Assembly: GCA_035571835.1 (NCBI GenBank)
Contig: DATNBU010000008.1
Location: 1 to 64,000 of the forward strand
Reading direction: 5' to 3'
Length of the DNA stretch: 64,000 nucleotides
Origin: Candidatus Limnocylindrales bacterium
GTDB lineage: Bacteria > Desulfobacterota > Binatia > UBA1149 > CAITLU01
The notes under the pieces were generated by a model that was not told the DNA's origin, did not search any database, and saw nothing but the letters and a program-made list of their open reading frames with translations. Position 1 is the stretch's first letter, and each line of letters opens with the position of its first letter. This document shows, piece after piece, positions 18,179 to 64,000 of this stretch. A program made the translations under genes and the position numbers.

Positions 18179-20551
18179 ATGACCGCGATAGCGCATTGGA
18201 AAGGTTCGATTCTGTTTCGGTCCGGGTTCCTGTCAGCGACGTTGACCACAGCGCTCTGCGCTGCCGCCTGGCCGGGGACTGCACGGGCGAACTTCACCTG
18301 TTCGAACAACCAGGATTGCGCGGGCCGCGCGGCGCAGTGCGATCCGGGCCGGACACCGTGCGACGACGGCATCTGCAGGCCGGGAGATCCGGACGCCGAC
18401 AACATCGGCTGCGTGCTGATTCCGAACGACGGCAAGTGCGACGACGGAAATTTCTGCAACGGCGTCGAGTTCTGCCTGCACGCGCACGGCTGCCGGGACG
18501 CACCGCCTCCCGACTGCGACGACGACATCGCGTGCACCGGCGACCAGTGCGATGCGCAGCTCGGCTGCACGCACACCAGGCACAATTCCCTGTGCAGCAA
18601 CGGCCTGTTCTGCGACGGAAAGGAAATCTGCGACGCCACTCGCGGCTGCATCGACGGAACTCCGCCGAAGTGCGGCGACAAGGTCGATTGCACGACCGAT
18701 TTCTGCGACGAGGCGCACGACGTCTGCGCGCACACGCCGAACGATTCCGTGTGCAACAACGGCCTGTTCTGCGACGGCACCTCGACGTGCGATCCGGCCT
18801 CCGGTTGCCGGCCGGTGACACTGCCGAACTGCAACGACAACATCCCGTGCACGGCCGACTCGTGCGACGAGGCGCACGACACGTGCTCGCACGTCGCGAA
18901 CAACGCCTTGTGCAGCGACGGACTGTTCTGCGACGGCGTCGAGACGTGCAGCCCGACGCAGGGCTGCCGTCCCGGAACGCCTCCCAACTGCAACGACAAC
19001 GTGCTCTGTACGGCCGACGCGTGCGATGAGACCAACGACGTCTGCTCGCATACGACGAGCAATGCTCCGTGCAGCGACGGACTGTTCTGCGACGGCGTCG
19101 AGATCTGCAGTCCCACGCAGGGCTGCCAGCCGGGAACGCCGCCCAACTGCAGCGACAATGTCACCTGCACGAGCGACCGATGCGTCGAGACCACCGATTC
19201 GTGCGAGCACACGCCGCGCGACAGCAACTGCAGCAACAACATCTTCTGCGACGGTGTCGAAGTCTGCAGCCCGACGCTCGGGTGCCAGCCGGGGACGCCG
19301 CCGAGTTGCGCCGACAACATCCCGTGCACGACCGACCAGTGCATCGAGGCCACGCACGGTTGCAGCCATACTCCGAATGACACGGCCTGCAGCAACGGCC
19401 AGTTCTGCGACGGGCCGGAAATCTGCGACATCCTGATCGGTTGCCACCACGGAACGCCGCCGAACTGCGCCGATGCCATCCCGTGCACGGTCGACGTGTG
19501 CGTCGAGGAAACCGACACCTGCGCGCACATGCCGAACGACTTTCCGTGCAGCAACGGCCTGTTCTGCGACGGCTCCGAAGTCTGCAACCCGACGCTCGGA
19601 TGCACGTTCGGAACGCCGCCGGACTGCGCGGACACCATTGCGTGCACGACGGACTTCTGTTCGGAGGACCAGAACGCCTGCGTGCACCAGCCGAACAACC
19701 AGCTCTGCACCGACGGTCAGTTCTGCGACGGCGTCGAGGTCTGCAACCCGTTAACCGGCTGCCAGCCCGGTACGCCTCCGATCTGCGCCGACGTGCTCGT
19801 CTGCACGGATGATTCCTGCAACGAAACGATCGACCGCTGCGTTCATGAGCCCAACGGCACGCTTTGCGGCAACGGCGTGATCGACGGCGTCTGCGGAGAA
19901 GTCTGCGACGACGGTCCGGTCACGGGCGAGATCTGCAACAACGACATCGATGACGACCACGACGGCCTCATCGACTGCGCGGATCCGGACTGTGCGAACC
20001 TTGTCTTCGAGACCTGCGACAACAATTGCCATCCGGTTCCGCCGTGCCAGCCGCTGCGAAACGATCCTGCCCTGATTTCCTTCGGCGGCACCGAGGCGAC
20101 GTCCGAAAGCTCCGACGGAAGCGGCGAACGGTCGGCCGGCCCCCCGGGCCAGTTCAGTTTCCACGCAAGGCTGATTCCGACCACGGAGATCGATCCGCTC
20201 CGCGAGCGCTTCGTCCTCACGCTCTCGAACGACAACGGCGTGATCTACCGTGCCGAGCTGGATCCGAGCCGCCTGCGGGCGGACGGAAAGCGGTTCCGGT
20301 ACTACGCGACCGATCTCGGCGCTGTGGCAAGAGACGGCGGGATCGCAAAGCTCAGCATTCAGCAACGCACCTACGGCGGCCAGGTCGGCTACGCGTTCCG
20401 TGTCCGGGCAATCGGCGATTTCTCGCGGGCCACGCTCGCGCTGATGACGACGCAGGTCTACTTCGGCGACGACGTCGGCTACGTGACGGCGTTATGGACC
20501 GGCGAGCCCGGCCACTGGGTCCTCAGGCAGAAAGACTACGACGTGCCCTGA
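18179..20551 (+). CDS. secreted cysteine-rich repeat protein with shared C-terminal module
   Basis: 790 residues. The N-terminal signal peptide is hydrophobic at about residues 14-32 and ends in TARAN. Residues ~115-545 hold eight tandem copies of a ~53-residue unit containing eight cysteines each: DNxxCTxDxC..., C-S-x-G-x-F-C-D-G-x-E-x-C, and GCxxGTPPxC; a ninth copy is partial. After a metal-binding-like segment (EICNNDIDDDHDGL-IDCADPDC) comes a C-terminal domain of ~150 residues (FSFHARLIP, LTLSNDNGVIYRAELDP, TTQVYFGDD) that is also the C-terminus of the giant protein at 54407. Probably disulfide-rich and cell-surface or matrix located; no enzymatic motif. Start ATG follows AGGGAAG. It overlaps the convergent SGNH gene by 16 bases at its 3' end. 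Confidence 0.85.
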   Translation: MTAIAHWKGSILFRSGFLSATLTTALCAAAWPGTARANFTCSNNQDCAGRAAQCDPGRTPCDDGICRPGDPDADNIGCVLIPNDGKCDDGNFCNGVEFCLHAHGCRDAPPPDCDDDIACTGDQCDAQLGCTHTRHNSLCSNGLFCDGKEICDATRGCIDGTPPKCGDKVDCTTDFCDEAHDVCAHTPNDSVCNNGLFCDGTSTCDPASGCRPVTLPNCNDNIPCTADSCDEAHDTCSHVANNALCSDGLFCDGVETCSPTQGCRPGTPPNCNDNVLCTADACDETNDVCSHTTSNAPCSDGLFCDGVEICSPTQGCQPGTPPNCSDNVTCTSDRCVETTDSCEHTPRDSNCSNNIFCDGVEVCSPTLGCQPGTPPSCADNIPCTTDQCIEATHGCSHTPNDTACSNGQFCDGPEICDILIGCHHGTPPNCADAIPCTVDVCVEETDTCAHMPNDFPCSNGLFCDGSEVCNPTLGCTFGTPPDCADTIACTTDFCSEDQNACVHQPNNQLCTDGQFCDGVEVCNPLTGCQPGTPPICADVLVCTDDSCNETIDRCVHEPNGTLCGNGVIDGVCGEVCDDGPVTGEICNNDIDDDHDGLIDCADPDCANLVFETCDNNCHPVPPCQPLRNDPALISFGGTEATSESSDGSGERSAGPPGQFSFHARLIPTTEIDPLRERFVLTLSNDNGVIYRAELDPSRLRADGKRFRYYATDLGAVARDGGIAKLSIQQRTYGGQVGYAFRVRAIGDFSRATLALMTTQVYFGDDVGYVTALWTGEPGHWVLRQKDYDVP

Positions 20552-22113
20552 CCGGAAGCCGGACACGTTCGTCCGAGAATCTCGCGTGCGTACGTGTCGG
20601 CAACGATCGCGTTGCCGCGCGGATTGAGGTGCACCCAGCTGACGAGCAGGTCGCGATCGTGATCCAGCGCGGAGACGATATCGGCCACAGGAACTCCGTT
20701 CTCGCGCGCCCAGCGTTCCTCGGCTGCAAGCACGCGCTCGTGGATCAGGAAGTTCATCTCCATCCGGCTCACGTGACCTTCGCGTGAAAGCTTCTCGCGT
20801 ACGCGCGCAATCTCGTCCGCGTACGTCACGCCCTTGATCTTCTCGCGCGGAACCAGCAGGGACCGCGCCTGCTGTTTGCCGACCACGAGCAGGATGCCGC
20901 GCTTCCGGCACTCGTCGCGAACCCGCGCCAGATTCTCCACGAAATGCTCGGGACGGCCGGCTGCGACCTTCTCGACGTGTGCGGCATCGAAGCTCTCGGC
21001 GGGGTCCGTGACCATCTCGTGGTACAGGAACGAGATCAGGAAATGCTCGCGCGCCCAGTGCTTGATCTCGCTCGTCACGCTGCGCTGTTTGGTCGCGGCG
21101 GACTGGTCGCCCTCGACGCCCTCGGAGCTGTCGTTGATGCCTTCGTAGAACGTGACGACGTCCGGCGTGAGCGGCAGACCTTCGGCAACGAACAGCGAAG
21201 CGATCTCGCTCGAAGTCAGGTGCGGGATGCCGAGGTTGACCACTTCGTAGCGAGTGCCGGCGGAGCAGCGCTGGTTCAGAACGCGCTCGAGCGTGGCCGG
21301 GTACGTGCCGTCGTCGGGATCGTGGTAGCCGAACGTCGACGACGCGCCGAGGGTCACGACGCGGATGGTGCCCGACGGCTTGGCCTCGACGATTTCCGGG
21401 CCGCGGAATCCGCGCGCGTTGATCGTCGCGCGATAGACCTCGCCGGTGTCCGCGTCGTACGTGAATCGCGATTCGTTCGGAAAGTACTTGGTGTAGTTGC
21501 CGGCGACGAAGGTGTGCTGGCGTACGTTGTGGTATTCGTCGTCGCTGCCGCGCAGGCGCCTCTGGTAGAGGCTGAGCAGTAGCGGAGAGCTCTCGACGGA
21601 GCCGCCGATCTGAAGGCGCTGGACGCTCGTGCCGAACCAGAACACGCTCGGTCCCAGCAGCGTTGCGAAGTATGCGCGCAGCACGAGCTCGACCGTGCCG
21701 AGCACGAACACGAGGACGATCGCTGCGAAGGCGGTTTTCTTGCCGCGTCCGATCAGGGACGTGCGGCACGCATCGCACGTAACCGCATTCCTTCGAACAG
21801 TGGCTCCGCAGTGCGGGCAGCGCTTGCCCTGCGGCGCGACGGATTCCTCGCCGGATTGATCGAACGACCCGGGACGCCGGTCGGACGACGGCTTGTCGAG
21901 CTTTTCCAGTGAACCGATCCCCCTGACTCTGAACTTGCTGACTCTGAGCTTGCGACGCGGCGACGGCCGCGTTTCGCAGGTGCTTTTGCCGCTCGCAGCA
22001 TCGTCAACTCGACGGGGCGACGCAGCCCGCGCACCTTCCAACGCGAGATGCGGGCAGTCAAGGACCGGGCGCTCGCGCCCACCTTCTACGGATGTGGCGG
22101 AAGAACGGCGCAT
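20536..22113 (-). CDS. SGNH/GDSL-hydrolase-like membrane protein with N-terminal zinc ribbon
   Basis: Up to 525 residues. After a polar N-terminus comes a zinc-ribbon (CPHCGATVRRNAVTCDACR), one transmembrane helix (FAAIVLVFVLGTVELVL), then an SGNH-hydrolase-like domain with GASSTFGY (block I Ser), a GINDSSEG Asn block and a C-terminal WVHLNPRGN His block. The Asp usually found two residues before that Trp-x-His is Ser here (VSWVHL), so the catalytic dyad may be altered. The likely topology is a cytoplasmic zinc ribbon and an external hydrolase domain, perhaps deacetylating or binding envelope glycans. Start uncertain: the ATG at 22113 is used, but only the region from the zinc ribbon onward is recognisable, and TTG or CTG starts lie between. 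It overlaps the convergent gene at 18179 by 16 bases. Confidence 0.7.
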   Translation of the reverse strand: MRRSSATSVEGGRERPVLDCPHLALEGARAASPRRVDDAASGKSTCETRPSPRRKLRVSKFRVRGIGSLEKLDKPSSDRRPGSFDQSGEESVAPQGKRCPHCGATVRRNAVTCDACRTSLIGRGKKTAFAAIVLVFVLGTVELVLRAYFATLLGPSVFWFGTSVQRLQIGGSVESSPLLLSLYQRRLRGSDDEYHNVRQHTFVAGNYTKYFPNESRFTYDADTGEVYRATINARGFRGPEIVEAKPSGTIRVVTLGASSTFGYHDPDDGTYPATLERVLNQRCSAGTRYEVVNLGIPHLTSSEIASLFVAEGLPLTPDVVTFYEGINDSSEGVEGDQSAATKQRSVTSEIKHWAREHFLISFLYHEMVTDPAESFDAAHVEKVAAGRPEHFVENLARVRDECRKRGILLVVGKQQARSLLVPREKIKGVTYADEIARVREKLSREGHVSRMEMNFLIHERVLAAEERWARENGVPVADIVSALDHDRDLLVSWVHLNPRGNAIVADTYAREILGRTCPASGQGTS

Positions 22114-22240
22114 TCGCGGCGGAAAAGCACGCCGGGGCGTGGCTGATCGGGCGGAGGCGGGTCATGCTCGCGAGCAATTCGGGAGGCACCGGCAGCACGA
22201 GCCGCCGGGATGACCATTCCCGACTCGCCAGGAGAACACG

Positions 22241-37146: not shown

Positions 37147-38319
37147 TCAGGGCAGCGTTTCATCCGAGATGGCCGCGAGTCGTCCGGATCGCTGTCTTTG
37201 AAACGGCGGCGAGAAAACGGCTCCCCAGCAGATGTCGTCATCGTTGCGCAGTTGCACGTCGACAACGCCGCTGATCTGCGACAGATCGGGAAGTGCCAGA
37301 GATTCGCCGCTGCCTTTCATGCTGATGCGCGCCTTGCCGTCGACCACGCCCTCTTTCAGCCGCAGTGACGTGATCCCACCCGTCGAGCCTCCCGGATTGT
37401 CGTACGCGAATCCGTCGTTCCTGCTCGTCCAGTAACGATTGCTTTGAGGGATCGGAAAGCTGTCGAGCAGGGTGCCGTCCTCATAAACACACAGCCGGTA
37501 ACCGTCGGTTGCGGTCGGATCGCCGAAATCGTCGCGTGGTGACACCGGTCCCGTTCGCCAGCTCCACGAAAGCCGGTCGGAGAGGTCGTCGGCATCGTCG
37601 ATCAAAACCAGACGAGACTTCCCTGCCTGCAGCGGGTTGCGGCAGTCGGCGGGCGTCGGAGTGCAGACGGAATGTCGCGGCAGTCGCTGCCAGGTCGCGT
37701 ATTGACCTTGGGCGAAGACCGTCGCCAGGCCTTCCGATTCCGCGACGAGATCGGTGGAGAGCAGCTCGCTCGAATAAGTCCAGCCATCCGGCAGCGGGCT
37801 GCCGGCAAGTCCGCCGACGACGGTGGGATCGTACTGCCCGAGCAGACTGACGGCGATGGCCTGCAGCACGTAGCGATCGCCCCGCGTGTCGGTCACGACG
37901 TGAATGACCTCGCCTGCGGCGAATCGATATCGCGTGTCGCGCGCAATGCTCGCGACCGCGAAGATGCCGAACGTCGGATCGTTACCGACCACGGTGGCGG
38001 AGACGAGCTGGGCAACAAAGACGAAATCGTCGCCGGGCACTTCCGGGATAAGGTCGAGAGACTGGGCTACTCCAGGCGGAGCAGTCGGCAGGTTCGCGGT
38101 CACTTCCGTCGGCAGGAAAAGCTTTGCCGGCGCCTTTTCGAACCCGGGCGGAGGCGTGACCGCTTCGAACTGCTCCAGAGTGCACTCGGGTTTGCAGACG
38201 TAGACGTTTCGCGAGAACGGCGGGTTCTCCGCGGTCAGCTCGCGGACCTCGAGCAGATAGGCGGCATCGGCAGTGTGGCCGAAGAGCAGAATCGAGAGTG
38301 TGGCCAGGGCCATTCGCAT
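37147..38319 (-). CDS. exported hypothetical protein
   Basis: 390 residues with a signal peptide (MRMALATLSILLFGHTADA-AY). The mature part is mixed alpha/beta, with cysteine pairs (VCKPEC, SVCTPTPADC) and a Trp-rich region near WSWRTGPVSPRDDFGDPT. No recognisable catalytic motif or family. ATG 38319 is chosen since CGGAGA precedes it and the signal peptide starts there. Divergent from a TetR-family gene with a palindrome in between, so it may be that regulator's target. It ends facing the repeat protein at 35967 with a 70-base gap. Confidence 0.65.
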   Translation of the reverse strand: MRMALATLSILLFGHTADAAYLLEVRELTAENPPFSRNVYVCKPECTLEQFEAVTPPPGFEKAPAKLFLPTEVTANLPTAPPGVAQSLDLIPEVPGDDFVFVAQLVSATVVGNDPTFGIFAVASIARDTRYRFAAGEVIHVVTDTRGDRYVLQAIAVSLLGQYDPTVVGGLAGSPLPDGWTYSSELLSTDLVAESEGLATVFAQGQYATWQRLPRHSVCTPTPADCRNPLQAGKSRLVLIDDADDLSDRLSWSWRTGPVSPRDDFGDPTATDGYRLCVYEDGTLLDSFPIPQSNRYWTSRNDGFAYDNPGGSTGGITSLRLKEGVVDGKARISMKGSGESLALPDLSQISGVVDVQLRNDDDICWGAVFSPPFQRQRSGRLAAISDETLP

Positions 38320-38338
38320 AATAATCTCCGGAGCAATA

Positions 38339-38361
38339 TATTGGTGTTTCGGGTTCCAATA
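38339..38361. promoter_or_regulatory. candidate TetR operator TATTGG-N11-CCAATA
   Basis: Perfect six-base inverted repeat spanning 23 bases, centred between the divergent exported-protein gene (start 38319) and the TetR-family gene (start 38388). Size and location fit a TetR-dimer site controlling both promoters. Not tested. Confidence 0.45.
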
Positions 38362-38387
38362 GTTCAATTACCCGGAATGGGGCACTG

Positions 38388-51217: not shown

Positions 51218-54200
51218 ATGGTCGCCTCGTTGCGCACGCTTACGCGAAGACGTTCGGCGTTCATTGCCGGCCTGGTTGCTGCACTCGCTCCGTGCGTTTC
51301 GCACGCCGCGCTCCGTGCCATCGGTCATGAATTCCGGCCGACGACCGACGAGCGCACGCGCGAGTTCGCATGTCCGGCCGGAGACGGCACCACCGGCTTC
51401 GTCGAGTTCCGTTGCCAGGAATCGCAGCCCGGGCACTGCGCCGATCCGAACATTGGAACACTGTTTGCCACATGGCGTTCGGCCGACGGCAACGCCGTCG
51501 CGGAACCGATCGAGATCGGAATGGTGTACGGCTCGTCCGGGATTCCGTACGACTGCGCTGCGGACGGCCGGATCGTGGTGCTGCGAGAAGGCTATCTTCG
51601 ATTGATCGACCGCAACGGCTTCCTCGAAGTTTCCACTGCGATCTGTGGCGGCGGCCCTTGCTGGGGACCGTTCGCGCTGACCGCGACGAACGACGGGTTT
51701 TTCGTGATGTGGAGCGACTACACCCGCGGCCTGGTCGGGCGTTCGTTCGGCGGTGACGGCGTGGCGACGACTGCGCCACGTCTTCTTTTCAAGCAGGACC
51801 GCCTGTCCGTCCTGCTGGCGGCCAACGGCCTTCTTCAATCGGACGGCAGCATCGTCGTCGCATGGCGCGAGGGCACCTCGGCAGTCTCCGCGATGCTGGT
51901 GCATCCGGGCGGAACGGCCGATCCGCCGGTTCCCGCAAGCGAATTTCCATATCTGGATCAGGTTGCTCCACTCGTGCTCGTTCGCGAAGACGGCGATCGC
52001 AGCATCGTTGCATGGCAGAACGTTGCGGAGCAGGCCGGCTGGGTTGCACGCCGAATCGTGTCGGGCGATGCCCCGGTGACGACCACGAGCACGACGACGA
52101 CCACGCTCGAGCCCGACGCCGAGGTCTTCGAAAAGCCGATCTCGCTCGGTACGACGCCAGCCGGCGACGACACGTACTTCCTGGCGCGGCCCGGACTGAT
52201 CGGCGACGTGCACGGCCGGTGGGCAGCGACATGGCCGGATTACAGCCCAGCCGACGAATACGATGAGATGGAAACCAGCATCGCGAGCTCGCGCGACGGC
52301 GCGTTGCAATGGTCCCTTTCCGAAACGTTTCATTTCGACCCTTACGATTCTCGGCTCGGCGCAACGATCGCGACCGACGGCGACAGCGTGGCGCTTGCCG
52401 CATGGCCGCGCCGGGATGGTGCGATCCTGCTGCGCCAGTCGGCCGACGGTGGTCAGACGTGGAGCGAGGATTCGGTTCTGTACGCCGGGGTCGGCTTCGT
52501 CGAGGGCTTCTTCGGCGGGTACGTCGGGATCTCCGACATCGCGCTGACCCCTGGCGGCGACGGCGTCTGGCTCGCGACGTGGAGCGAAGCCGTCGTCGAG
52601 TACGTGTCCTGCTGGGAGGATCCCGGCTGCATCGACTACAAGGACAAAGTGCTCATCTGCGCGCTGCGTTCGGCACGCTCGTTCGATGCGGGATCGTCAT
52701 GGACCGAAGCGACGACGATAGCCGCCGGCGTGTGCGGCGAGCGCGACCTCGCCGTCGCGACCGACAAAGACGGCCAGTGGCTCGCGATCTGGAGAGACTG
52801 GCATTGGGATGGACCCGACTCGGTCGCCGGAGCGTGGTCGTCCGACAACGGACAAACCTGGTCGGAGCAGGAAGTCATAGCTGCAGACGTACGCCTGCCT
52901 CAGCGCGCTCTTTCGGTCGCGGCCGACGAAGACCAATGGGTCATCGCATTCGCACGCGCCGACTGGGATGAGGTGACCGCCTCGCTGAACTCCAACATTT
53001 ATGTTTCCCGGCGCGACAGCGGCGGCGGGGAATGGAGCGATCCTGCCGGCATCGCACCGTGGAACGGCGAGACTCCCGTGCGCGACCTCTATCCTTCGCT
53101 CGAGGCCGCCGGCGACGGACTGTTCGGCCTCGCGTGGTCGTCGCATTCGGCCGGCGCGGGCCTCGATGCGGATATCGTCGCATCGTTCTCGCACGATGGC
53201 GCAGCGTCCTGGACGGGCCCGCGGCTGGTCGATCCGGAGGCGCGCGAGGATCCGGCCAAGGATCTCAATCCGGAGCTGGTCCGCGCGGGCGAAGCATGGG
53301 GCGTCGCGTGGCGTGCGCGAGAGTCGTCGAGCAACGTGATCCGGTTCGCGAGAACGCGCGGAAGCTGCGGCAACGGCGAGCCCGACGAGCCCGAGCAGTG
53401 CGACGACGGCAACGACGTAGACGCCGACGGATGCGATCGCACCTGCCGCCCGACGGGATGCGGCAGCTTTGTCGTGACCGGCGATGAGCAATGCGACGAC
53501 GGCAACACGACCGACACCGACTCGTGCGTCGATTGCCGCGACGCCTTCTGCGGCGACGGATTCGTCGAAGCCGGACACGAGGAATGCGACGACGCGAACG
53601 ATGTCGATGGTGACGGCTGCCTGAACGACTGCCGGGTGGCCAGGTGCGGCGATGCCGTGGTTCGCGCCGGCGTCGAGACGTGCGACGACGGCGATACCAG
53701 CGGCAACAACGACTCGTGCCTGTCCGACTGCAGCCTTCCGGTCTGCGGCGACGGCTACGTCGAGATCGGTCCCGAGGAATGCGACGACGGCAACCTCGCC
53801 GACGGCGACGGCTGCACGAGCCGGTGCGTGCTCGATCCGGATTGCGGGTTCTTCAGCCGCTCCGGCCTGCGTGTGACGGCAACGGATGCGCTCAAGGTGC
53901 TCAAGCGGGCGACGGGTCTCGCGACGCGCTGCCCGCTGCGAAACTGCGATCGCAACGGCGACGATCGCGTGACCGCCAGCGATGCGCTCGCCGCGCTTCG
54001 CTCCGCCGTCGGCCTGTTCGCCGAGGGCTGCTCGCTGCCGACCGGCCTCGTCGTGCGAATGACGTCGGACGAGAAGCTCGGCGCCGTCGAGTTTTCCCTG
54101 CGCTTCGCCGACGCGGCCGGATTCATTCCCGCGAAGGGCGATGGCAAGCCGCGGTGTACGATCAAGGTCGGTGCACCGACGCTTTCCGCCATCGGATGGG

Positions 54201-54397
54201 ACGACCGGCACGAGGTCGTGGCGGTCTCCATCGTCTCGGTCGTCGGCGTGCAGGGACCGGCGACGCTCGTCGAGTGCTCGTACGATCCGGTCTCCGGCCC
54301 GTCGCTGCGCGACTTCCAGCTGACCGTGCAGCATGCGACCTCGTCGACGGGATCGGCGCTCGATCCGCTGCCGACCCTCGTCGTCGAGACGCGCTGA
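51218..54397 (+). CDS. secreted BNR-type beta-propeller protein with DUF4215, dockerin-like and cohesin-like C-terminus
   Basis: 1059 residues. The signal peptide is AFIAGLVAALAPCVSHA. Residues ~30-285 form a beta-rich head, followed by a Thr linker (TTTSTTTTTLEPD, ~288-300). Residues ~310-710 carry sialidase-type BNR/Asp-box repeats (SADGGQTWSED, FDAGSSWTEA, SSDNGQTWSEQ, SHDGAASWTG). Residues ~715-880 are DUF4215 repeats (CDDGND-DADGC). Residues ~885-945 hold paired calcium loops with DALKVLKRATGL and NGDDRVTASDALAALRSAVGL (dockerin-like), and ~950-1059 is a cohesin-like beta sandwich (EFSLRFADAAGF...). The propeller may be glycan-binding or sialidase-like, but no full catalytic set is evident. 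It is convergent with the giant surface protein; stops are nine bases apart. Confidence 0.8.
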   Translation: MVASLRTLTRRRSAFIAGLVAALAPCVSHAALRAIGHEFRPTTDERTREFACPAGDGTTGFVEFRCQESQPGHCADPNIGTLFATWRSADGNAVAEPIEIGMVYGSSGIPYDCAADGRIVVLREGYLRLIDRNGFLEVSTAICGGGPCWGPFALTATNDGFFVMWSDYTRGLVGRSFGGDGVATTAPRLLFKQDRLSVLLAANGLLQSDGSIVVAWREGTSAVSAMLVHPGGTADPPVPASEFPYLDQVAPLVLVREDGDRSIVAWQNVAEQAGWVARRIVSGDAPVTTTSTTTTTLEPDAEVFEKPISLGTTPAGDDTYFLARPGLIGDVHGRWAATWPDYSPADEYDEMETSIASSRDGALQWSLSETFHFDPYDSRLGATIATDGDSVALAAWPRRDGAILLRQSADGGQTWSEDSVLYAGVGFVEGFFGGYVGISDIALTPGGDGVWLATWSEAVVEYVSCWEDPGCIDYKDKVLICALRSARSFDAGSSWTEATTIAAGVCGERDLAVATDKDGQWLAIWRDWHWDGPDSVAGAWSSDNGQTWSEQEVIAADVRLPQRALSVAADEDQWVIAFARADWDEVTASLNSNIYVSRRDSGGGEWSDPAGIAPWNGETPVRDLYPSLEAAGDGLFGLAWSSHSAGAGLDADIVASFSHDGAASWTGPRLVDPEAREDPAKDLNPELVRAGEAWGVAWRARESSSNVIRFARTRGSCGNGEPDEPEQCDDGNDVDADGCDRTCRPTGCGSFVVTGDEQCDDGNTTDTDSCVDCRDAFCGDGFVEAGHEECDDANDVDGDGCLNDCRVARCGDAVVRAGVETCDDGDTSGNNDSCLSDCSLPVCGDGYVEIGPEECDDGNLADGDGCTSRCVLDPDCGFFSRSGLRVTATDALKVLKRATGLATRCPLRNCDRNGDDRVTASDALAALRSAVGLFAEGCSLPTGLVVRMTSDEKLGAVEFSLRFADAAGFIPAKGDGKPRCTIKVGAPTLSAIGWDDRHEVVAVSIVSVVGVQGPATLVECSYDPVSGPSLRDFQLTVQHATSSTGSALDPLPTLVVETR

Positions 54398-54406
54398 GAC
54401 GCTTCG

Positions 54407-57400
54407 CTACTGCCCGTACGCCTGCTGCATCGTCAGGTACCACGCGCCGGGCTTGCCGAGCCAGTCGGCGGTCAGGTACGCGGTGTCGTCGCCGATGTAG
54501 ATCTGCGACGTCATCGTCGCCTCGGTCGCCACCGTCAGGTCACCGTACGTGATGATCGTGAACGGGTACGACGTCGCGCCGTCCTTCTCGATGCGCTGGT
54601 GGATGCCGAGACGGTAGATGCCGTACGGAGACGGCTGATTCTTCACGGTCGTGTCCTTGTAGACCCAGCGCTTCAGCTCACCGCGCACGCCTTCGACCAT
54701 CACGCCCGGATCGAGCTCGACCGAGTAGATGAGGCCCGTCGAGTTCGACAGTGTGAACTTGATGCCGTCGTCGGTCGGATTCGCGTCCGTCGACGGGATG
54801 AAGCGCCCGTGGATCTTGATCCGGGTGTTGCTGATCCGGGCCGGGTCGTTGAGGATCGCGACGCACGCCGGAGCGAGCTGGCAGTTGCCGTCGCAGCTCT
54901 GGAATCCGCTGACCTGGCAGGCCGGATCGGCGCAGTCGACTGCGAGGTTGCCGTCGTCGTCGATGCCGTTGTTGCAGATCTCGGCATCGGGCGGATCGCA
55001 GTCTTCGCCGGCGTCGACGATACCGTTTTCGCACGTGGCGCTCGCGCTCACGTCCGTAGGCTCGCTGTCGAAATTGTCCGAGACCACGGCATCGGCCGAT
55101 GCAGAGGCCACGAACGCATCGTTGCAGACGTCCTCGAGATCGTCGCAGTCGCCGTCCTGCCTCGTCGAGTCGACCGGTGCGTCGGCAGCGATGGTGACGA
55201 CGACGTTCACGGTCGCCGAGCCGGCGTTCGCGATCGTGCCGACCGGGCACGTCAGCGACGTGCCGATGCTCGATGAGCGTACCGTGCATCCCGCATCGTC
55301 GCTGACGTATGTCATTTCCGGATCGAGCAGGTCGTAGACGACGACGCCGGTCGCGGCATCCGGTCCGGCGTTGCTGACGACGATCTGGTACGTGACCGCA
55401 TCGCCCGGCTGCACCGGCTCGACGGCCAGATCGCTCTTGACGAGCGACAGTGCCGACGACGTCGTGGTCGTGACGACGTCGGTCGAGACGTCGGCGACGT
55501 TGTTCGACGGATCCGGGTCGGTCTGGTCGGCGCTGACCGATGCGCGGTTGCACATGTCCTCGGCGCCCGAGCACGGCACGCCCGAGGCGGAGCTCGCCGT
55601 CGGCGCCGACGGATCGACGCGCACGACGATGTCGAACGCGACGGTCTCACCGGCAGCCATGTCGCCGATCGGGCACGTCAGCATGCCGGTCGGAGCTTCG
55701 GTGCACGCGAGCGTGCCGCCGACGTACGTCATGTACGCGTCGAGCGTGTCGACGACCTGGACGCCGGTGGCGGCATCCGGGCCGTTGTTGGTGACGCTGA
55801 TCGTGTACGTCGCAAACGCTCCGGCCTGGACCGGGCTCGACACGTCGGTCTTCGTGATCGACAGGTCGGCCGGATCGGTCGCAATCGTGCGCACGTTGGT
55901 CGGCTCGCTGTCACTGTTGTTCGACGGGAACGCGTCAGTTTCGGTCGCGGCAACGGTTGCGTTGTTGCAGAGGTCCTCGCTGCCGTTGCACACGCCGTTC
56001 TCGCGCGAGCGCGACGTCTGCGCCGTGCCGCTGGTATGGACGATCACGTGGAACGTCAGCGAGGCGCCCGGCGCGAGAGAGCCGATCGGGCACGTGAGCG
56101 TGTTCGGCTGCGTCTCGGTGCAGCCGAGATCGTCGCTCACGTAGGACGTATCGGAGTCGAGCACGTCGACGACCGTCACGTTGGTCGCGGTGCCGGAGCC
56201 GTCGTTGGCGACCATCAGCGTGTACGCGAAGTCCTCGTTCAGGTTGACGCCGGTACCGGCGTCGCTCTTGACGAGGCGCAGGTCGACGGTCGCGACGTCG
56301 GTCGGCTCGCTGTCGGAGTTGTTCGACGGCACCGGATCGACCTGGTCGGAGCTGACCGTCACGCGGTTGCAGAGATCCTCCGCACCGGTGCACGTGCCGT
56401 TCTCACGCGTGCCGCTCGACGGCGCAGTCGGCCCGACGAGGACCGTGACCGTGAAGCTTGCCGAGGCACCCGACGCAATCGATCCGACGTTGCACGTGAG
56501 CCTGCCGACCGGGCTCTGCGTGCAGCCCGCGCTGTCGGACACGTACGTGGTGTTCGGATCGAGCGTGTCGACGGCCGTCACGTTGGTCGCCGTACGCGGC
56601 CCGTTGTTGGTCACGTTGATCGTGTAGGTGACGCTGCTGCCGCGCGCGACGGTCGCGCCGGCGTCGCTCTTGGTGACCGCGAGGTCGGCCGTGGCGGCAA
56701 GCGGCACCGACGCATCGTCGCTGTTGTTGCCCGGGACGGGATCCGGCGTCGTCGACGAGACGGTCGCCGTATTGACGATCGGATCCGGCGACGTGTATCC
56801 GGCCGGAACCGTGTACGTCGACGTGATCGTGCGCGTCGCTCCCGAGGCGAGCGTGCCGAGCGAGCACGGATACGCCGTTGCGCAAGCGCCTGAGTTGCTC
56901 GCGAACAGCAGACCGGACGGAGTCGGATCGGCGACGACCACGTTCTGTGCGTTCGACGGTCCGTGGTTCGTCACGACGACCGTAAACACCACGTTCGCAC
57001 CCGCTACGGCCTGCGCCGGACCGCTCTTGACGATCTCTACGTCTGCCGTCGGGCTGATCGGCACGGTGGCCGTATCCGTGTTGTCCGACGGATCGGGATC
57101 CGCCACGTCGTTGGAGAACACGCTCGCGGTATTGCTGATCGGATCGGGCGACGTGTACGACGACGGCACCGAGTACGTCACCGTGAGGTCGACCGATCCG
57201 CCGACCGCGAGGCTCGCGATCGTGCACGGCAGCGTCGAGCAGCCGCCGCCGGTGACGGAGACCAGCGTGAGCCCGCCCGGCGTAGGATCCGTGACGACGT
57301 CGTTGGTCGCGACGGCGGGTCCCGCGTTCGCGATGTGCAGCGTGAAGACCACATTCTGCCCGGGCATCGCCGAAGCGGGCCCGGATTTGACGATCGACAG

Positions 57401-60400
57401 GTCGGCCTGCACGAACGAGATGTTCGTCGACTGGCCGTCGCTGTTGTCTGCGAGGCTGGTCTCGAGCGTCGAGGTCGAGACCGATGCCGTGTTCACGATC
57501 GGGTCCGGCGTCGTGTAGCCGCCCGGCACCGAGTACGTGGCCGTGATCGCGACCGAGCCGCTGGCCGCGATGGTTCCCACCGAGCACGGGAATCCGGAAG
57601 CGCACGGCGCCGACGCCGACACGAACGTGAGGCCGGTCGGCGTGGGATCGGTGATGACCACGTTCGCGGCAGGCTGCGCGCCGTTGGTCACGGTGATCGT
57701 GTAGACGATGTTGCTTCCCGGCGTCACCGCGCCCGGTCCGGTCTTGTCGAGGACGAGGTTCGTCACCGGCACGAAGCCGAAGTCGATGCCGCTCGTGGCA
57801 AGCGCATCGTCCGTCGTGTCGGTCACGCCCTGCATGGGCGTTACCGGCGCGCCGGACGGATCGTTCGAGTCGAGCTGCGGATTGCCGCCGGCTCCGACCG
57901 GGCTTGCGACGAAATCGGCCGGAGTCGCGACCGTGACCTCGTACGTGGGCTCGCCGGCGCCGACGCCGTCGAAACTCTCGTCGAGCAGCAGGTTGCCGAA
58001 CGAGTACGCGCCCTGCGCGTCGGTCACGGTGACGACGGTCGTCACGTCGCCGTTCGGATACGTGATCGTCAGCGTGACGGCGACGCCCGCAATGCCCGTC
58101 TCGGACGGATCCTGGATGCCGTCGCCATCGGTGTCGTTGAAGACGAAGTTGCCGAACGCCGCGCCCGGCGCGAAGTAGCCGAAGTCGCCCGTCGTATTCG
58201 TTGCTCCGCCGCTTACCGTCACCGAGTAGCCGGCGACCTGGCTGTTGTTGTCGGCGCCGGGGTTCGGCCCGGTGGATTTGACGAGGCCGCCGAGCACGTT
58301 GCCGGCCTCGGACACTTCGACGGTATAGGTGCCGTCCGGAAGCCCGCCGAAGCTGTAGTTGCCCGACGCGTCGGTCGTCGTCGTGCCGACGACGTTGCCG
58401 TCCTGATCGCGCAGGATCACGGTGATGCCGGCGTATCCGCCGGTTTCGCCGCCGCCGCGCGTGCCGTTGCCGTTCGCGTCGTTGAAGATCGTTCCGCCGA
58501 TCGTGTTCGGCGTGGCGGCTTCATACGCGAAGTCCTGATCGAACGTGACTCCGTTTGCGAAGGCCGTCAGATCGACGGTTGCTTCCTCGTCGAAGCCGCC
58601 GTCCGGATCGACGCTGTTCGTCATGCCGGCGCCGCCGTTAGGCAGCGTCGCGTGATCGACTGCGACGACGTACGTCGCAGTCGAATCGAGACCGCCGAAC
58701 ACGTACTGGCCGTTCGCGTTGGTCACGGCGCTCGCGATCAGCGTCGTGCCGTCGGACGCGTACAGGTTTACCGTAACGCCTTCGATGCCTTCGCCCGCGT
58801 CGGCGATGCCGTCGTTGTCGCGGTCGAGGAAGATCGTGTCGCCGATCAGGCCGTCGCCCGGATCGTGGCCCGCCGGTGCGAAGCCGAAGTCCTGCGTCAG
58901 GTTGTCTGCGCCCGCGAGCACGACCGTGCTCAGGCGGTCGTTGCCACCGTCCGGATCGCCGGTGTTGGCCGAGGCGCCGGCGAGGATGTTGGCCGAATCC
59001 GTCACGACCACCGAGTAGATGCCGTCGGCGAGGCCCGGGAACGTGTACTCGCCGTTGGCGTCGGTCACGGTGGACGCGACGACGTTGCCGCTCGCGTCGA
59101 CGAGGACGATCGTCACGTTCGCGATGCCCGGCTCGCCCGGATCGCGCACGCCGTCGGCGTCGGCATCGAGGTAGATCGTGTTGCCGATCGTGTGGCCGCC
59201 CGGCAGCGGGAAGCCGAAATCGCCGGTCACGTAGACGTCGCCCGGTGCGAGCACGATCGGGTTCGACGTAGTGTCGCCGTCGCTATCCGGATCACCGGTC
59301 GGCGTGGAACTGTAGCCGGCCGGCAGCGTCGACGTGACCACGTCGATCACGTACGCGCCCGCAGCGAGGCCGTCGAAGTAGTAGTGACCGGCAGCATCCG
59401 TCGTCGTGGTGAGCGCGGCGTTGTCGCCCGCACCGCCGTACACGCCGTCGCCGTTGTCGTCACTCAGCAGCCGCACCGTCACGTCCGCGATTCCGGCTTC
59501 GCCGAAATCCTCGACGCCATCCATGTCCGCGTCGTTCCAGATGCGATCGCCGATCATGCCCGTCGCGCCCGGCGCCGGGTTCGTCGACGTGCCCGGCGCA
59601 ACCCAGTTGAAGCCGAAGTCGCCGCTGTCGTTGAACACGCCCGCGGCCACGGTGATCGACGTCTCGCCGTCCGGCGCTGTCGTGCCGTCGTCGAGGTCGT
59701 AGGTCGGGTTCGCGGCAAGCCCTGCCGGCAGCGTCGTCGTATCGACTCGCACGACGTAAGTGCCCGCGGCCAGGTCGGCGAAGATGTAGCGCCCGTCGGT
59801 GTCGGTGGTGGTCGCCGTGATCAGCACGGTGCCCGTCGCATCGTAGAGACGGACGATGACGCCCGCGAGGCCGTCCTCGCCGGCGTCCTGCACGCCGTCG
59901 CCGTCTTCGTCGAGCCACAGGCGGTCGCCGATGAACGACGGGGCTGCGGCGCGCGCATCCTGGTCGTCGTCGCTGTTGTTTGCCGGCACCGGATCGGTGA
60001 CTCCTGGAGGCGCAGTCACCGTGGCGATGTTGACGAGCGGGTCTACCGTTGCGCCCGGCACGATGTCCACGCTGGCGAGATACGTGACGCTCGCTCCGAC
60101 AGGCAGATTGACCGTGTCGGCGATGTCGCCGTTTCCGGATGCGCTGCACGAGCCGCCGCCGGTGCCAGAGCACGTCCACGCGATCGCCGAGATCTGCGGC
60201 GGGAACACGTCGCTCACGCTCGCACCGGTCGCGTTGCTGGGTCCGGCGTTCGAAACGGTGATCGTGTAGGTGAGGCTTCCGCCCGGCACGTAGACGGCGC
60301 TGCCGTCATCCTTGGTGATCGACAGATCGGCGGTCGGCGTGACCGGCGACGTCGCGGTGTCGGCATTCGGGAACACGCCCGGATCCGGCGTCGTCGAGCT

Positions 60401-63400
60401 CGCGGTTGCGGTGTTGCTGACCGGATTCGGCGCGGTGTAGCCGGACGGCACCGAGTACGTGACGTTGATCGTTGCGGTTGCGCTTGCGGCGAGAGTGCCG
60501 ATCGAGCACGGGAAGCCGGCGGCACACGGCGCCGTCGCCGAGACGAACGTCAGGCCGGACGGAGTCGGATCGGCGATGCTCACGTTCTGCGCGGCCGACG
60601 GCCCGTGGTTCGTGAGCGTCACCGTAAACACCGCATTGCTGCCGGGCGTGACCGATGCGGGAGCAGTTTTCGTCAGCTCGAGATCGGCCGACGGAGCGAG
60701 CGGCACGTTCGCCGTGTCGCTGTTCGGGAACACGCCCGGATCCGGCGTCGTCGAGCTCGCGGTTGCGGTGTTGCTGATCGGGTCGGGCGACGTGTAGCCG
60801 CTCGGCACCGAGTAGGTCACCGTGACCACCGCCGAGCCGGCCGACGCGATCGTGCCGAGCGAGCACGGGAATCCACCGGCGCACGGCGCGGTCGCCGAGA
60901 CGAAGCCGAGACCACTCGGAGTCGGATCGGCCAGGCTCACGTTCTGCGCGTCCGACGGACCGTGGTTGATCACGGTGATCGTGAACGTGGCGTTATTGCC
61001 GGGCACTGCCGAGGCGGGACCGGACTTGAACAGCTCGAGATCGGCGGACGGTACGAGCGGCACGTTCTCGGTGTCGCTGTTCGGGAACACGCCCGGATCC
61101 GGCGTCGTCGAGCTTGCGGTCGCGGTGTTGCTGATCGGATTCGGCGCCGTGTAACCGGCAGGCACCGAATACATCGTCGTGATCGTGGCCGATGCTCCCG
61201 ATGCGAGCGTGCCGAGCGAGCACGGATATGCGGTCGCGCACGCGCCCGAGTTCGACACGAAGCCGAGGCCGGCCGGCGTCGGATCGGCAACGCTCACGTT
61301 CTGCGCATCGGAAGGACCGTGGTTCGTCACGGTGATCGTGAACGCGACGTTGGTGCCCGGCACGGCCGAAGCCGGACCGGTCTTGGTCAGCTCGAGGTCG
61401 GCGGACGGAGCGAGCGGCACGGTTTCGGTGTCCGAATTGTTGGCCGGGTTCGGATCTCCCTGGTCGTTGGAGAACGCGTTCGCTGTATTGCTGATCGGGT
61501 TCGGCGCCGTGTAGCCGGCCGGTACCGCGTACGTCAGCGTCAGGTTCACGAAGCCGCCGTTGAGCAGGCTCGGGATCGTGCAGGGCAGGGCCGAGCAGCC
61601 GCCGCCCGAAACGCTCACGAAGCTGATGCCGCCGGGAGTCACGTCGCTCACCACGACGTTGGTCGCGTTGTCGGGGCCGTTGTTCTGCACGTGCAGCGTA
61701 AATACGACGTTCTGGCCCGGAACGGCCGACGCCGGTCCGGTCTTCGTGATGAGGATGTCCGCCGCGGTGAACGAAAGCGCGGTCGAAGCGCTGTCGCTGT
61801 TGTCGGCGAGGCTCGTCTCCGAAGTGGTCGTCGTCGCCGACGCGGTGTTGACGATCGGATCGGGCGTCGTGTAGCCGCCCGGCACGTTGAACGTGGCCGT
61901 GACGACGACCGAGCTGTTCGCCGCGATCGTGCCGATCGCGCACGGGAAGCCGCCGGCGCACGGCGCGCTGGCCGAAACGAACGTCAGGCCGGCCGGCGTC
62001 GGATCGGCCAGCACGACGCCCAGTGCCGGGGAAGCGCCGTTCGAAACCGTGATCGTGTAGGCCACGTTGTTGCCCGGCGTCACCGCGCCCGGGCCCGCCT
62101 TGTCGACGACGAGGTTGGTCACCGGCGTGAAGCCGAAGTCGACCGTCGCGTCCGTCGCGCCTTGCGTAGGCGTGAAGCCCGCTCCCGCAGGATTGTTCGA
62201 ATCGAGGGCGACGTTGCCGCCCTGTGCGATCGGGCTCGGCGTGAAGTTGGCGGGCGTCGCAACAGTGATCGAGTACGTCGGCTGGGTCGCACCCGTCACG
62301 TCGTAGCTCTCGTCGAGCCTCAAGTTCGTAAACGAGTACGCGCCCGTGCCGCTGGTCACCGTCGATTCGGTCACGACGTTTCCGTTCGGATACGTGATCG
62401 TCAGCGTGACGACTGCGTTCGCGATGCCGACCTCGCCGGCGTCCTGGATGCCGTCGTTGTCGGTGTCGTTGAAGACGAAGTCGCCGACGACCGACACCGG
62501 CGTGTAGTAGCCGAAGTCCGCGGTCGTGTTGGTCTGGCCGCCGGTCACCGTGACGCTGTAGCCCCGGACCTGGCTGTTGTTGTCGGCGCCGGGGTTCGGG
62601 CCCTCGGACTTGGTCTTGCCGCCGAGCACGTTCGCGGTCTCGGAGACGTCGACCGTGTACGTGCCGTTCGGAATGCCGGCGAACGAGTAGTTGCCCGATG
62701 CGTCGGTCGTCGTGGTGGCCACGATGTTGCCGTTCGCATCGCGCAGGATCACCGTCACGCCTGCGTAGCCGGTCGTCTCGCCGGCGCCTTTGGTGCCGTT
62801 GCCGTTGGCGTCGTTGAACACCGTGCCGCTGATCGTGTTCGGCGTGTTCGGGCGGTAGCCGAAGTCCTGCGTGAACGTCGTTGCGCCCGCGAACAGCGTC
62901 AGGTCGACGATCGACTGGCTCGCGATCCCGCCGTCCGGATCGACGGTGTTGGTCATGCCGGCGCCGCCGCCGGGCAGTGTCGTGGTATCGACGCGCACGA
63001 CGTACGTCTTCGTCGCGTCGAGGCCGCCGAACAGATAGCGACCGTTGATGTCGGTGTAGACCGTTGCGACGAGTGTCGTGCCGTTGGCGGCGTACAGGTT
63101 GACGGTCACGCCCTCGAGGCCTTCACCGGCGTCGAAGACGGCGTCGTTGTCGCGGTCGAGATAGATCGTGTCGCCGATCAGGCCGTCGCCCGGCTCGTGT
63201 CCGCCCGGTGCGAAGCCGAAGTCCTGGACTAGGTTGTCGGCGCCCGCGAGCACCACCGTGCTGATGCGATCGAAGCCGCCGTCCGGATCGCCGGTGTTGG
63301 TCGGCGTGTTCGCGAGGACGTTGAACACGTCGGTCACGACCACCGAGTACGTGCCGTTCGCCAGGCCCGGGAAGAGGAAGTTGCCGTTCGCGTCGGTAAT

Positions 63401-64000
63401 CGTCGACGCGACGATCTGGCCGCCGTTGTCCAGCAGGGAAACCGTCACGCCCGGCATGCCGACTTCGCCGCCGTCGCGCACGCCGTCGGCGTCCGCATCG
63501 ACGTAGATCGTATCGCCGATCGTGTGCCCGGTCGGGAGCGGATAGCCGAAGTCGGCGTTCACGAACACGTCGCCCGGCGCCACGAGAATCGGGTTCGTCG
63601 TGTTGTTGAAGTCGCCGTCCGGATCGCCGGTCGGCGTGGTCGTGAAGCCGGCAGGCAGAGTCGCCGTGTTCACGTTGATCACGTACGCGCCCGGCGCGAT
63701 GCCGTCGAAAATGTAGTGACCGGACGCATCGGTGGTCGTCGTGACCGCCGCGGCATCGCCCGCACCGCCGAACGTGCCGTCGCCGTTGGTATCGACGAGC
63801 AGCCGCACCTGGACGCCCGCGATTCCCGCTTCGCCGAAATCCTGCACGCCGTCGGAGTCCGCGTCGTTCCAGATGCGGTCGCCGATGGTGCCGGTCGCGT
63901 TCAGCGCCGGGTTCGAGGTGGTCGCCGGCGCAACCCAGTTGAAGCCGAAGTCGATGCGGTCTTCGTTCACGCCTGCTGCGACGGTGATCGTCGTCGAGGC
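54407..64000 (-). CDS. giant SdrD-B-like / DUF11 repeat surface protein (5' end outside the window)
   Basis: At least 3,197 codons; the frame stays open through the right window edge, so the apparent start at 63970 (GTG) is internal. Order N to C: SdrD B-like prealbumin/calcium modules (IGDRIWNDADxDGVxDxGE...), six DUF11 beta-sandwich repeats (ADLELTKTGPASAVPG...), again six SdrD modules, seven DUF11 repeats, then EICNNGIDDDGNLAVDCADPAC and a final domain (NDPARIS...TSQIYIGDDTAYLTADWLG). The last ~190 residues match the C-terminus of the protein at 18179. No LPxTG or transmembrane anchor is visible at the C-terminus. Probably an extended adhesin or matrix fibre stiffened by calcium; the gene is nearly internally duplicated. 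Confidence 0.85.
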   Translation of the reverse strand, partial: ASTTITVAAGVNEDRIDFGFNWVAPATTSNPALNATGTIGDRIWNDADSDGVQDFGEAGIAGVQVRLLVDTNGDGTFGGAGDAAAVTTTTDASGHYIFDGIAPGAYVINVNTATLPAGFTTTPTGDPDGDFNNTTNPILVAPGDVFVNADFGYPLPTGHTIGDTIYVDADADGVRDGGEVGMPGVTVSLLDNGGQIVASTITDANGNFLFPGLANGTYSVVVTDVFNVLANTPTNTGDPDGGFDRISTVVLAGADNLVQDFGFAPGGHEPGDGLIGDTIYLDRDNDAVFDAGEGLEGVTVNLYAANGTTLVATVYTDINGRYLFGGLDATKTYVVRVDTTTLPGGGAGMTNTVDPDGGIASQSIVDLTLFAGATTFTQDFGYRPNTPNTISGTVFNDANGNGTKGAGETTGYAGVTVILRDANGNIVATTTTDASGNYSFAGIPNGTYTVDVSETANVLGGKTKSEGPNPGADNNSQVRGYSVTVTGGQTNTTADFGYYTPVSVVGDFVFNDTDNDGIQDAGEVGIANAVVTLTITYPNGNVVTESTVTSGTGAYSFTNLRLDESYDVTGATQPTYSITVATPANFTPSPIAQGGNVALDSNNPAGAGFTPTQGATDATVDFGFTPVTNLVVDKAGPGAVTPGNNVAYTITVSNGASPALGVVLADPTPAGLTFVSASAPCAGGFPCAIGTIAANSSVVVTATFNVPGGYTTPDPIVNTASATTTTSETSLADNSDSASTALSFTAADILITKTGPASAVPGQNVVFTLHVQNNGPDNATNVVVSDVTPGGISFVSVSGGGCSALPCTIPSLLNGGFVNLTLTYAVPAGYTAPNPISNTANAFSNDQGDPNPANNSDTETVPLAPSADLELTKTGPASAVPGTNVAFTITVTNHGPSDAQNVSVADPTPAGLGFVSNSGACATAYPCSLGTLASGASATITTMYSVPAGYTAPNPISNTATASSTTPDPGVFPNSDTENVPLVPSADLELFKSGPASAVPGNNATFTITVINHGPSDAQNVSLADPTPSGLGFVSATAPCAGGFPCSLGTIASAGSAVVTVTYSVPSGYTSPDPISNTATASSTTPDPGVFPNSDTANVPLAPSADLELTKTAPASVTPGSNAVFTVTLTNHGPSAAQNVSIADPTPSGLTFVSATAPCAAGFPCSIGTLAASATATINVTYSVPSGYTAPNPVSNTATASSTTPDPGVFPNADTATSPVTPTADLSITKDDGSAVYVPGGSLTYTITVSNAGPSNATGASVSDVFPPQISAIAWTCSGTGGGSCSASGNGDIADTVNLPVGASVTYLASVDIVPGATVDPLVNIATVTAPPGVTDPVPANNSDDDQDARAAAPSFIGDRLWLDEDGDGVQDAGEDGLAGVIVRLYDATGTVLITATTTDTDGRYIFADLAAGTYVVRVDTTTLPAGLAANPTYDLDDGTTAPDGETSITVAAGVFNDSGDFGFNWVAPGTSTNPAPGATGMIGDRIWNDADMDGVEDFGEAGIADVTVRLLSDDNGDGVYGGAGDNAALTTTTDAAGHYYFDGLAAGAYVIDVVTSTLPAGYSSTPTGDPDSDGDTTSNPIVLAPGDVYVTGDFGFPLPGGHTIGNTIYLDADADGVRDPGEPGIANVTIVLVDASGNVVASTVTDANGEYTFPGLADGIYSVVVTDSANILAGASANTGDPDGGNDRLSTVVLAGADNLTQDFGFAPAGHDPGDGLIGDTIFLDRDNDGIADAGEGIEGVTVNLYASDGTTLIASAVTNANGQYVFGGLDSTATYVVAVDHATLPNGGAGMTNSVDPDGGFDEEATVDLTAFANGVTFDQDFAYEAATPNTIGGTIFNDANGNGTRGGGETGGYAGITVILRDQDGNVVGTTTTDASGNYSFGGLPDGTYTVEVSEAGNVLGGLVKSTGPNPGADNNSQVAGYSVTVSGGATNTTGDFGYFAPGAAFGNFVFNDTDGDGIQDPSETGIAGVAVTLTITYPNGDVTTVVTVTDAQGAYSFGNLLLDESFDGVGAGEPTYEVTVATPADFVASPVGAGGNPQLDSNDPSGAPVTPMQGVTDTTDDALATSGIDFGFVPVTNLVLDKTGPGAVTPGSNIVYTITVTNGAQPAANVVITDPTPTGLTFVSASAPCASGFPCSVGTIAASGSVAITATYSVPGGYTTPDPIVNTASVSTSTLETSLADNSDGQSTNISFVQADLSIVKSGPASAMPGQNVVFTLHIANAGPAVATNDVVTDPTPGGLTLVSVTGGGCSTLPCTIASLAVGGSVDLTVTYSVPSSYTSPDPISNTASVFSNDVADPDPSDNTDTATVPISPTADVEIVKSGPAQAVAGANVVFTVVVTNHGPSNAQNVVVADPTPSGLLFASNSGACATAYPCSLGTLASGATRTITSTYTVPAGYTSPDPIVNTATVSSTTPDPVPGNNSDDASVPLAATADLAVTKSDAGATVARGSSVTYTINVTNNGPRTATNVTAVDTLDPNTTYVSDSAGCTQSPVGRLTCNVGSIASGASASFTVTVLVGPTAPSSGTRENGTCTGAEDLCNRVTVSSDQVDPVPSNNSDSEPTDVATVDLRLVKSDAGTGVNLNEDFAYTLMVANDGSGTATNVTVVDVLDSDTSYVSDDLGCTETQPNTLTCPIGSLAPGASLTFHVIVHTSGTAQTSRSRENGVCNGSEDLCNNATVAATETDAFPSNNSDSEPTNVRTIATDPADLSITKTDVSSPVQAGAFATYTISVTNNGPDAATGVQVVDTLDAYMTYVGGTLACTEAPTGMLTCPIGDMAAGETVAFDIVVRVDPSAPTASSASGVPCSGAEDMCNRASVSADQTDPDPSNNVADVSTDVVTTTTSSALSLVKSDLAVEPVQPGDAVTYQIVVSNAGPDAATGVVVYDLLDPEMTYVSDDAGCTVRSSSIGTSLTCPVGTIANAGSATVNVVVTIAADAPVDSTRQDGDCDDLEDVCNDAFVASASADAVVSDNFDSEPTDVSASATCENGIVDAGEDCDPPDAEICNNGIDDDGNLAVDCADPACQVSGFQSCDGNCQLAPACVAILNDPARISNTRIKIHGRFIPSTDANPTDDGIKFTLSNSTGLIYSVELDPGVMVEGVRGELKRWVYKDTTVKNQPSPYGIYRLGIHQRIEKDGATSYPFTIITYGDLTVATEATMTSQIYIGDDTAYLTADWLGKPGAWYLTMQQAYGQ
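56700..63900 (-). repeat. two-copy super-repeat inside the giant gene
   Basis: The block starting IGDRIWNDADSDGVQD (about 63890) recurs as IGDRIWNDADMDGVED (about 59560), offset by about 4.3 kb. The following modules recur in the same order: IYxDADADGVRD, IxLDRDNDxxxD, IFNDANGNGT, FVFNDTDxDGIQD, TNLVxDKxGPGAVTPG, GPASAxPGQNVVF, NHGPSxAQNV. Protein-level similarity is high. Boundaries are approximate. Confidence 0.75.

Follow-up and report, generated by a model that had tools for sequence, protein, structure and literature searches.

A family of C-terminal beta-sandwich domains shared by exported proteins of an uncultured bacterial lineage, with a plausible role in sorting or anchoring

Two exported proteins with dissimilar bodies, encoded in a 64,000-nucleotide stretch of bacterial DNA (the whole stretch analysed, hereafter the window), end in a shared C-terminal module. 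We found that this resemblance is real and larger than first noted: re-scoring in open frames gives a total of about 81 proteins with a related domain in the 5.46 Mb genome, and their sequences make a sorting role plausible. The domain in the two initial proteins (subfamily A) is best explained as one branch of a large superfamily, specific to the lineage, whose members are beta-sandwiches at the C-terminus of exported proteins.

The first protein, encoded at 18179..20551 (+), is an exported Cys-rich repeat protein of 790 aa whose N-terminus is, by eye, a signal peptide (MTAIAHWKGSILFRSGFLSATLTTALCAAAWPGTARA). The second is a giant SdrD/DUF11 protein of 5002 aa, of which the window encodes the C-terminal 3197 aa (54407..64000, -); its open frame runs on past the window edge and starts at about contig position C8:69416. 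BLASTP between the last 220 residues of each aligned 218 aa at 39% identity (144 bits, E 7e-48), and by this comparison the two tails are homologous, as the sequence-only reading had claimed. All the motifs on which that reading relied were located in both tails: EICNN-IDDD with DCADP-C, C..LRNDPA or ILNDPA, F.ARLIPT or H.RFIPS, LTLSN..G.IY..ELDP, TQVYFGDD or SQIYIGDD, and W-x-G-x-PG-x-W. The same reading held that the rest of the proteins is entirely different. This stands for the pair, i.e., Cys-rich repeats in one and DUF11/SdrD repeats in the other, but not for the other five subfamily A proteins of the genome, whose bodies are 39-60% identical to that of the 18179 protein.

The module is composed of a Cys-rich acidic linker (EICNN-IDDD--GLIDCADPDC---C---C----C) followed by a beta domain of ~150 aa that reaches the stop codon. 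In the 18179 protein, the linker was delimited by alignment at 19889..20059 (+; GE.CD...EICNN-IDDD..GLIDCADPDC...C..C...C) and precedes a 163-aa domain at 20060..20548 (+), assigned to subfamily A (the 'MTTQ' subfamily) by BLASTP and all-beta in the AF2 model. In the giant protein, the linker lies at 54851..55033 (-) and the subfamily A domain, identified by BLASTP and by the protein search of the genome, at 54410..54850 (-). The linker resembles the acidic double-disulfide repeat NF033662 in its pattern CNN-IDDD-DG-DC-D-C, but the match in the giant protein is confined to the linker and falls below threshold (E 9.6e-7, 28.4 bits against a curated cut-off of 41), and the 18179 protein has no match to this model. 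For the beta domain, neither Pfam nor NCBIfam has a convincing model.

Both genes converge with a neighbour. The 18179 gene shares its last 16 bases (20536-20551) with the stop end of a gene encoding a GDSL-like lipase (20536-22161, -) with a zinc-ribbon-like N-terminal segment. The gene at 51218-54397 (+), whose stop lies ~10 bases from that of the giant gene, encodes a 1059-aa exported protein with BNR/sialidase-like repeats, DUF4215 Cys-rich repeats and a dockerin-like EF-hand pair; its C-terminal beta region, possibly cohesin-like by eye, is a module different from the subfamily A one.

The protein search revealed seven copies of subfamily A in the genome, all C-terminal in their proteins. 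Apart from the giant protein, these are Cys-rich repeat proteins that are mutually related over a large part of their sequence (33-60% identity). Hosts in relatives are of more kinds, and strong matches in ~30 related genomes nearly all end 0-8 aa before the stop; in one relative (L084), a Pro/Thr tail follows the domain.

The profile of 58 subfamily A domains (A4) also matched weaker C-terminal domains in the genome. Profiles built from these weaker domains, A6 and A8, retrieved 58 and 63 loci, respectively. We distinguish three subfamilies, A (profile A4), B (A9) and C (A8), which hhalign relates to one another at 98.6% for A-B (E 9e-16), 98.9% for B-C (E 3e-17) and 89% for A-C, while controls with reversed or column-shuffled profiles gave at most 1.6%. 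By best match, the family members of the genome split into 7 A, 17 B and 57 C. One of them is a third member within the window, a 406-aa exported protein (37147..38367, -; E 1.2e-39) with a signal peptide (MRMALATLSILLFGHTADA) and a subfamily C domain at its end (37150..37602, -, delimited by the profile match). Two Cys and one Trp are invariant in 34 of 34 subfamily C domains. Sequence searches of the PDB with profiles A4 and A8 returned nothing significant, and the domain family appears to be uncatalogued in Pfam and NCBIfam.

The position of the domain is strongly biased. In 76 of the 81 members, no more than 20 aa separate its end from the C-terminus, where uniform placement would predict ~3, although the copies are homologous and hence do not represent 81 independent events. 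Signal peptides were identified with a rule that is passed by 47 of the 52 members with a complete N-terminus; this rule is loose, since 20 of the 37 genes of the window pass it too, and it misses the 18179 protein, whose signal peptide is plain by eye. The cargo includes Peptidase_S8 (subtilase), phosphoesterase, penicillin amidase, Spherulin4 and DUF3604 proteins as well as DUF5122 and further beta-propellers, beta-helix, ice-binding, PKD and DUF11 proteins. Since these cargos are unrelated, the domain has stayed C-terminal despite extensive shuffling. A dockerin-like motif is not a common partner of the domain, being found in 1 of the 81 proteins; we observed it in a protein of 431 aa (L179, G000:C8:97828-100267) that also has a subfamily C domain at its C-terminus.

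Unrelated exported proteins thus share only their C-terminal domain. The initial reading had expected that a profile search would turn up the module at the end of many exported proteins, and this is the outcome, rather than matches that are internal or in cytoplasmic proteins. A pattern of this kind has served to recognise C-terminal sorting signals, including GlyGly-CTERM, MYXO-CTERM and the C-terminal domains (CTDs) of the type IX secretion system (T9SS) (PMC3237569, PMC11980579, PMC4804311). We give about even weight to the reading of the shared domain as a sorting or anchoring domain, analogous to the T9SS CTDs and unrelated to them in sequence. The homology of the domains, their C-terminal position, the diversity of the exported cargo, the ~81 copies and the lack of a transmembrane tail are observations; the sorting or anchoring role, plausible as it is, is inferred, together with the path taken and the place where the proteins end up.

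A close parallel is with the T9SS, where a C-terminal Ig-like beta-sandwich can serve as an outer-membrane export signal (PMC4804311). The T9SS CTDs (type A, TIGR04183; type B, TIGR04131; the CTD of RgpB) are C-terminal Ig-like beta-sandwiches found on many unrelated Sec-exported proteins in a diderm lineage, which the domain described here would resemble. This logic, a signal peptide plus a C-terminal sandwich on diverse cargo (PMC4804311), could mean that the domain is a true T9SS CTD of the Por secretion tail families, which we regard as highly improbable. The lineage is different, the domain is about twice the length of the RgpB CTD construct, and the Por_Secre_tail and gliding CTD profiles (TIGR04183, TIGR04131) matched none of the 58 subfamily A or 34 subfamily C domains scanned against NCBIfam, nor did any Pfam model. 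The one TIGR04183 match in the giant protein falls in an SdrD repeat and not in the C-terminal domain. Peptidase_C25, the class of PorU, is absent from the window's genome (G000) and from 54 of the 58 genomes searched, and the same search matches another genome (G003) at 7e-87. The T9SS marker SprA_N (PF14349) has no match in the genome, and none in the control genomes either.

Other C-terminal signals provide further analogies. MYXO-CTERM with myxosortase, GlyGly-CTERM with rhombosortase and PEP-CTERM with exosortase are likewise lineage-specific, numerous per genome and placed at the extreme C-terminus of exported proteins; those that carry MYXO-CTERM or GlyGly-CTERM make use of the type II secretion system (T2SS) (PMC11980579). 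CTERM tags (LPXTG, PEP-, GlyGly- and MYXO-) are short and consist of a motif, a transmembrane helix and a basic tail, whereas the family described here has a soluble beta domain of ~150 aa with no such helix: of 79 closed proteins, only 1 exceeds 1.6 on the Kyte-Doolittle scale in any 19-aa window of its last 60 aa. The absence of a transmembrane tail, of an NCBIfam tail model and of a C25 peptidase in the genome agrees with the initial view that the module is of a type different from the T9SS and GlyGly-CTERM tags. The choice-of-anchor domains of NCBIfam also lie near the C-terminus of surface proteins. Those domains are followed by a distinct anchor signal and the one described here by nothing, and 1 of the 58 subfamily A domains touches such a model (choice_anch_X, E 0.0087).

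The AF2 model of the domain from the window, run together with four relatives, is an all-beta sandwich (mean pLDDT 75.5, core ~80-92); a subfamily C domain modelled from one sequence alone came out poorly (pLDDT 42) and was left out. The fold resembles Ig-like domains generically and weakly, with a best Foldseek E of 0.054 (none below 0.05) and a best Z of 7.2 in VIA, to EBV gp350 at an rmsd of 4.5 Å. Because the matches are only generic and weak, they give no functional hint.

An Ig-like sandwich would also suit a binding domain, CBM- or adhesin-like, that sticks secreted proteins to extracellular polysaccharide, mineral or matrix; export would then be ordinary, with no machinery reading the domain, and domain shuffling would have kept it C-terminal. 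This is a serious rival because secreted proteins made of the domain alone are hard to explain as tagged cargo and because one strong member has an internal domain, and we consider it a substantial possibility, though not the favoured one. The domain-only proteins are found in relatives (L086, L096, L106 and L070:276-923) and have a signal peptide, the domain and nothing else; the first three, from related genomes, are short, with a short segment carrying a CC.C motif between the two. They suggest that the domain does something by itself. The internal copy is in L209 (G000:C28:22268-27011), the sole strong member of this kind, which has 500 aa after the domain and is possibly a fusion of two genes; the copy with a Pro/Thr tail and the Pro/Thr-rich linkers ahead of the domain in several relatives (L094, L103, L110, L112), which are typical of binding modules, point in the same direction. 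On the other hand, the domain is single and C-terminal in nearly all members, while binding modules are usually found N-terminal, internal and in tandem as well, and the cargos have no evident common substrate. The proposal of a secretion, sorting or anchoring domain made by the sequence-only reading is thus upheld as far as the C-terminal place on exported cargo is concerned, and is weakened by the domain-only proteins, which are unexpected for a pure cargo tag, and by the fact that no cognate machine was found.

The segment ahead of the domain is rich in cysteines. Over the 80 aa preceding it the median count is 10 Cys, compared with 2 for an equal length of the body, and a Cys-rich stretch is present there in 56 of 77 members. 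Together with the invariant Cys of subfamily C, this fits an oxidising, extracytoplasmic location. It could also indicate that the domain has no targeting role and instead stabilises Cys-rich or repeat proteins as a structural cap or a folding unit, especially as subfamily A mostly follows Cys-rich repeats. We find this unlikely, since the domain also occurs alone and on enzyme and propeller proteins, which should need no cap.

Under the sorting or anchoring reading, the cargo would leave the cytoplasm via Sec signal peptides, as the N-termini suggest, and would fold in the periplasm, with disulfides forming in the linker or, for subfamily C, inside the domain. The C-terminal domain would then act as a shared handle by which the folded protein is routed across the outer membrane, retained at the cell surface, or both. 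Passage through the outer membrane might use the T2SS; this link is a guess because genomes without the domain also encode GspD. We considered GspD as a discriminating partner and rejected it, as it is present in 57 of 58 genomes, both with and without the family. The genome of the window has two full-length copies above the cut-off (G000:C39:35141-37009 and C39:170118-172157). Many genomes with subfamily A also have two full-length copies and family-negative ones mostly have one, or none, but some strongly positive genomes (family f13) have one as well, so there is no clean co-occurrence. Around the seven subfamily A genes no neighbour is conserved, and only a gene of the short-chain dehydrogenase type recurs. 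Neither the distribution of GspD nor these neighbourhoods revealed cognate machinery. A stronger version of the sorting reading, in which the Binatota lineage has a new pathway for outer-membrane sorting or secretion whose dedicated machine recognises a C-terminal beta-sandwich of ~150 aa present on ~1.5% of the proteome, is conceivable but rather doubtful.

The family is restricted in its distribution. Within the class, 30 of 58 genomes have subfamily A and 38 of 58 have subfamily C, with up to 57 copies. The domain occurs in families f1-f4, f8, f9, f11 and f13 of the class; families f5, f6, f7, f12 and f14 have neither subfamily A nor C. Across 297 genomes of the phylum, matches among the best 12-13 candidates per genome were only in members of this class. 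One match to the family domain is on contig JAJRWY010000089.1 (L055), from a 'Candidatus Binatota bacterium', and the source organism is in or near Binatota. Because several families of the same class do without the domain altogether, the machinery of a sorting route, if the domain marks one, could be sought by phyletic profiling.

We found no paper on secretion and C-terminal domains in Binatota or Binatia, and the genome paper on Binatota does not mention secretion. As far as this literature search shows, no study has addressed the proteins secreted by this uncultured lineage. In this genome, ~80 of them carry a single domain family that has not been described, and naming it would make the exported proteome readable from any related genome. 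If the domain is indeed a sorting signal, then the lineage has a route analogous to the T9SS or to the myxosortase system.
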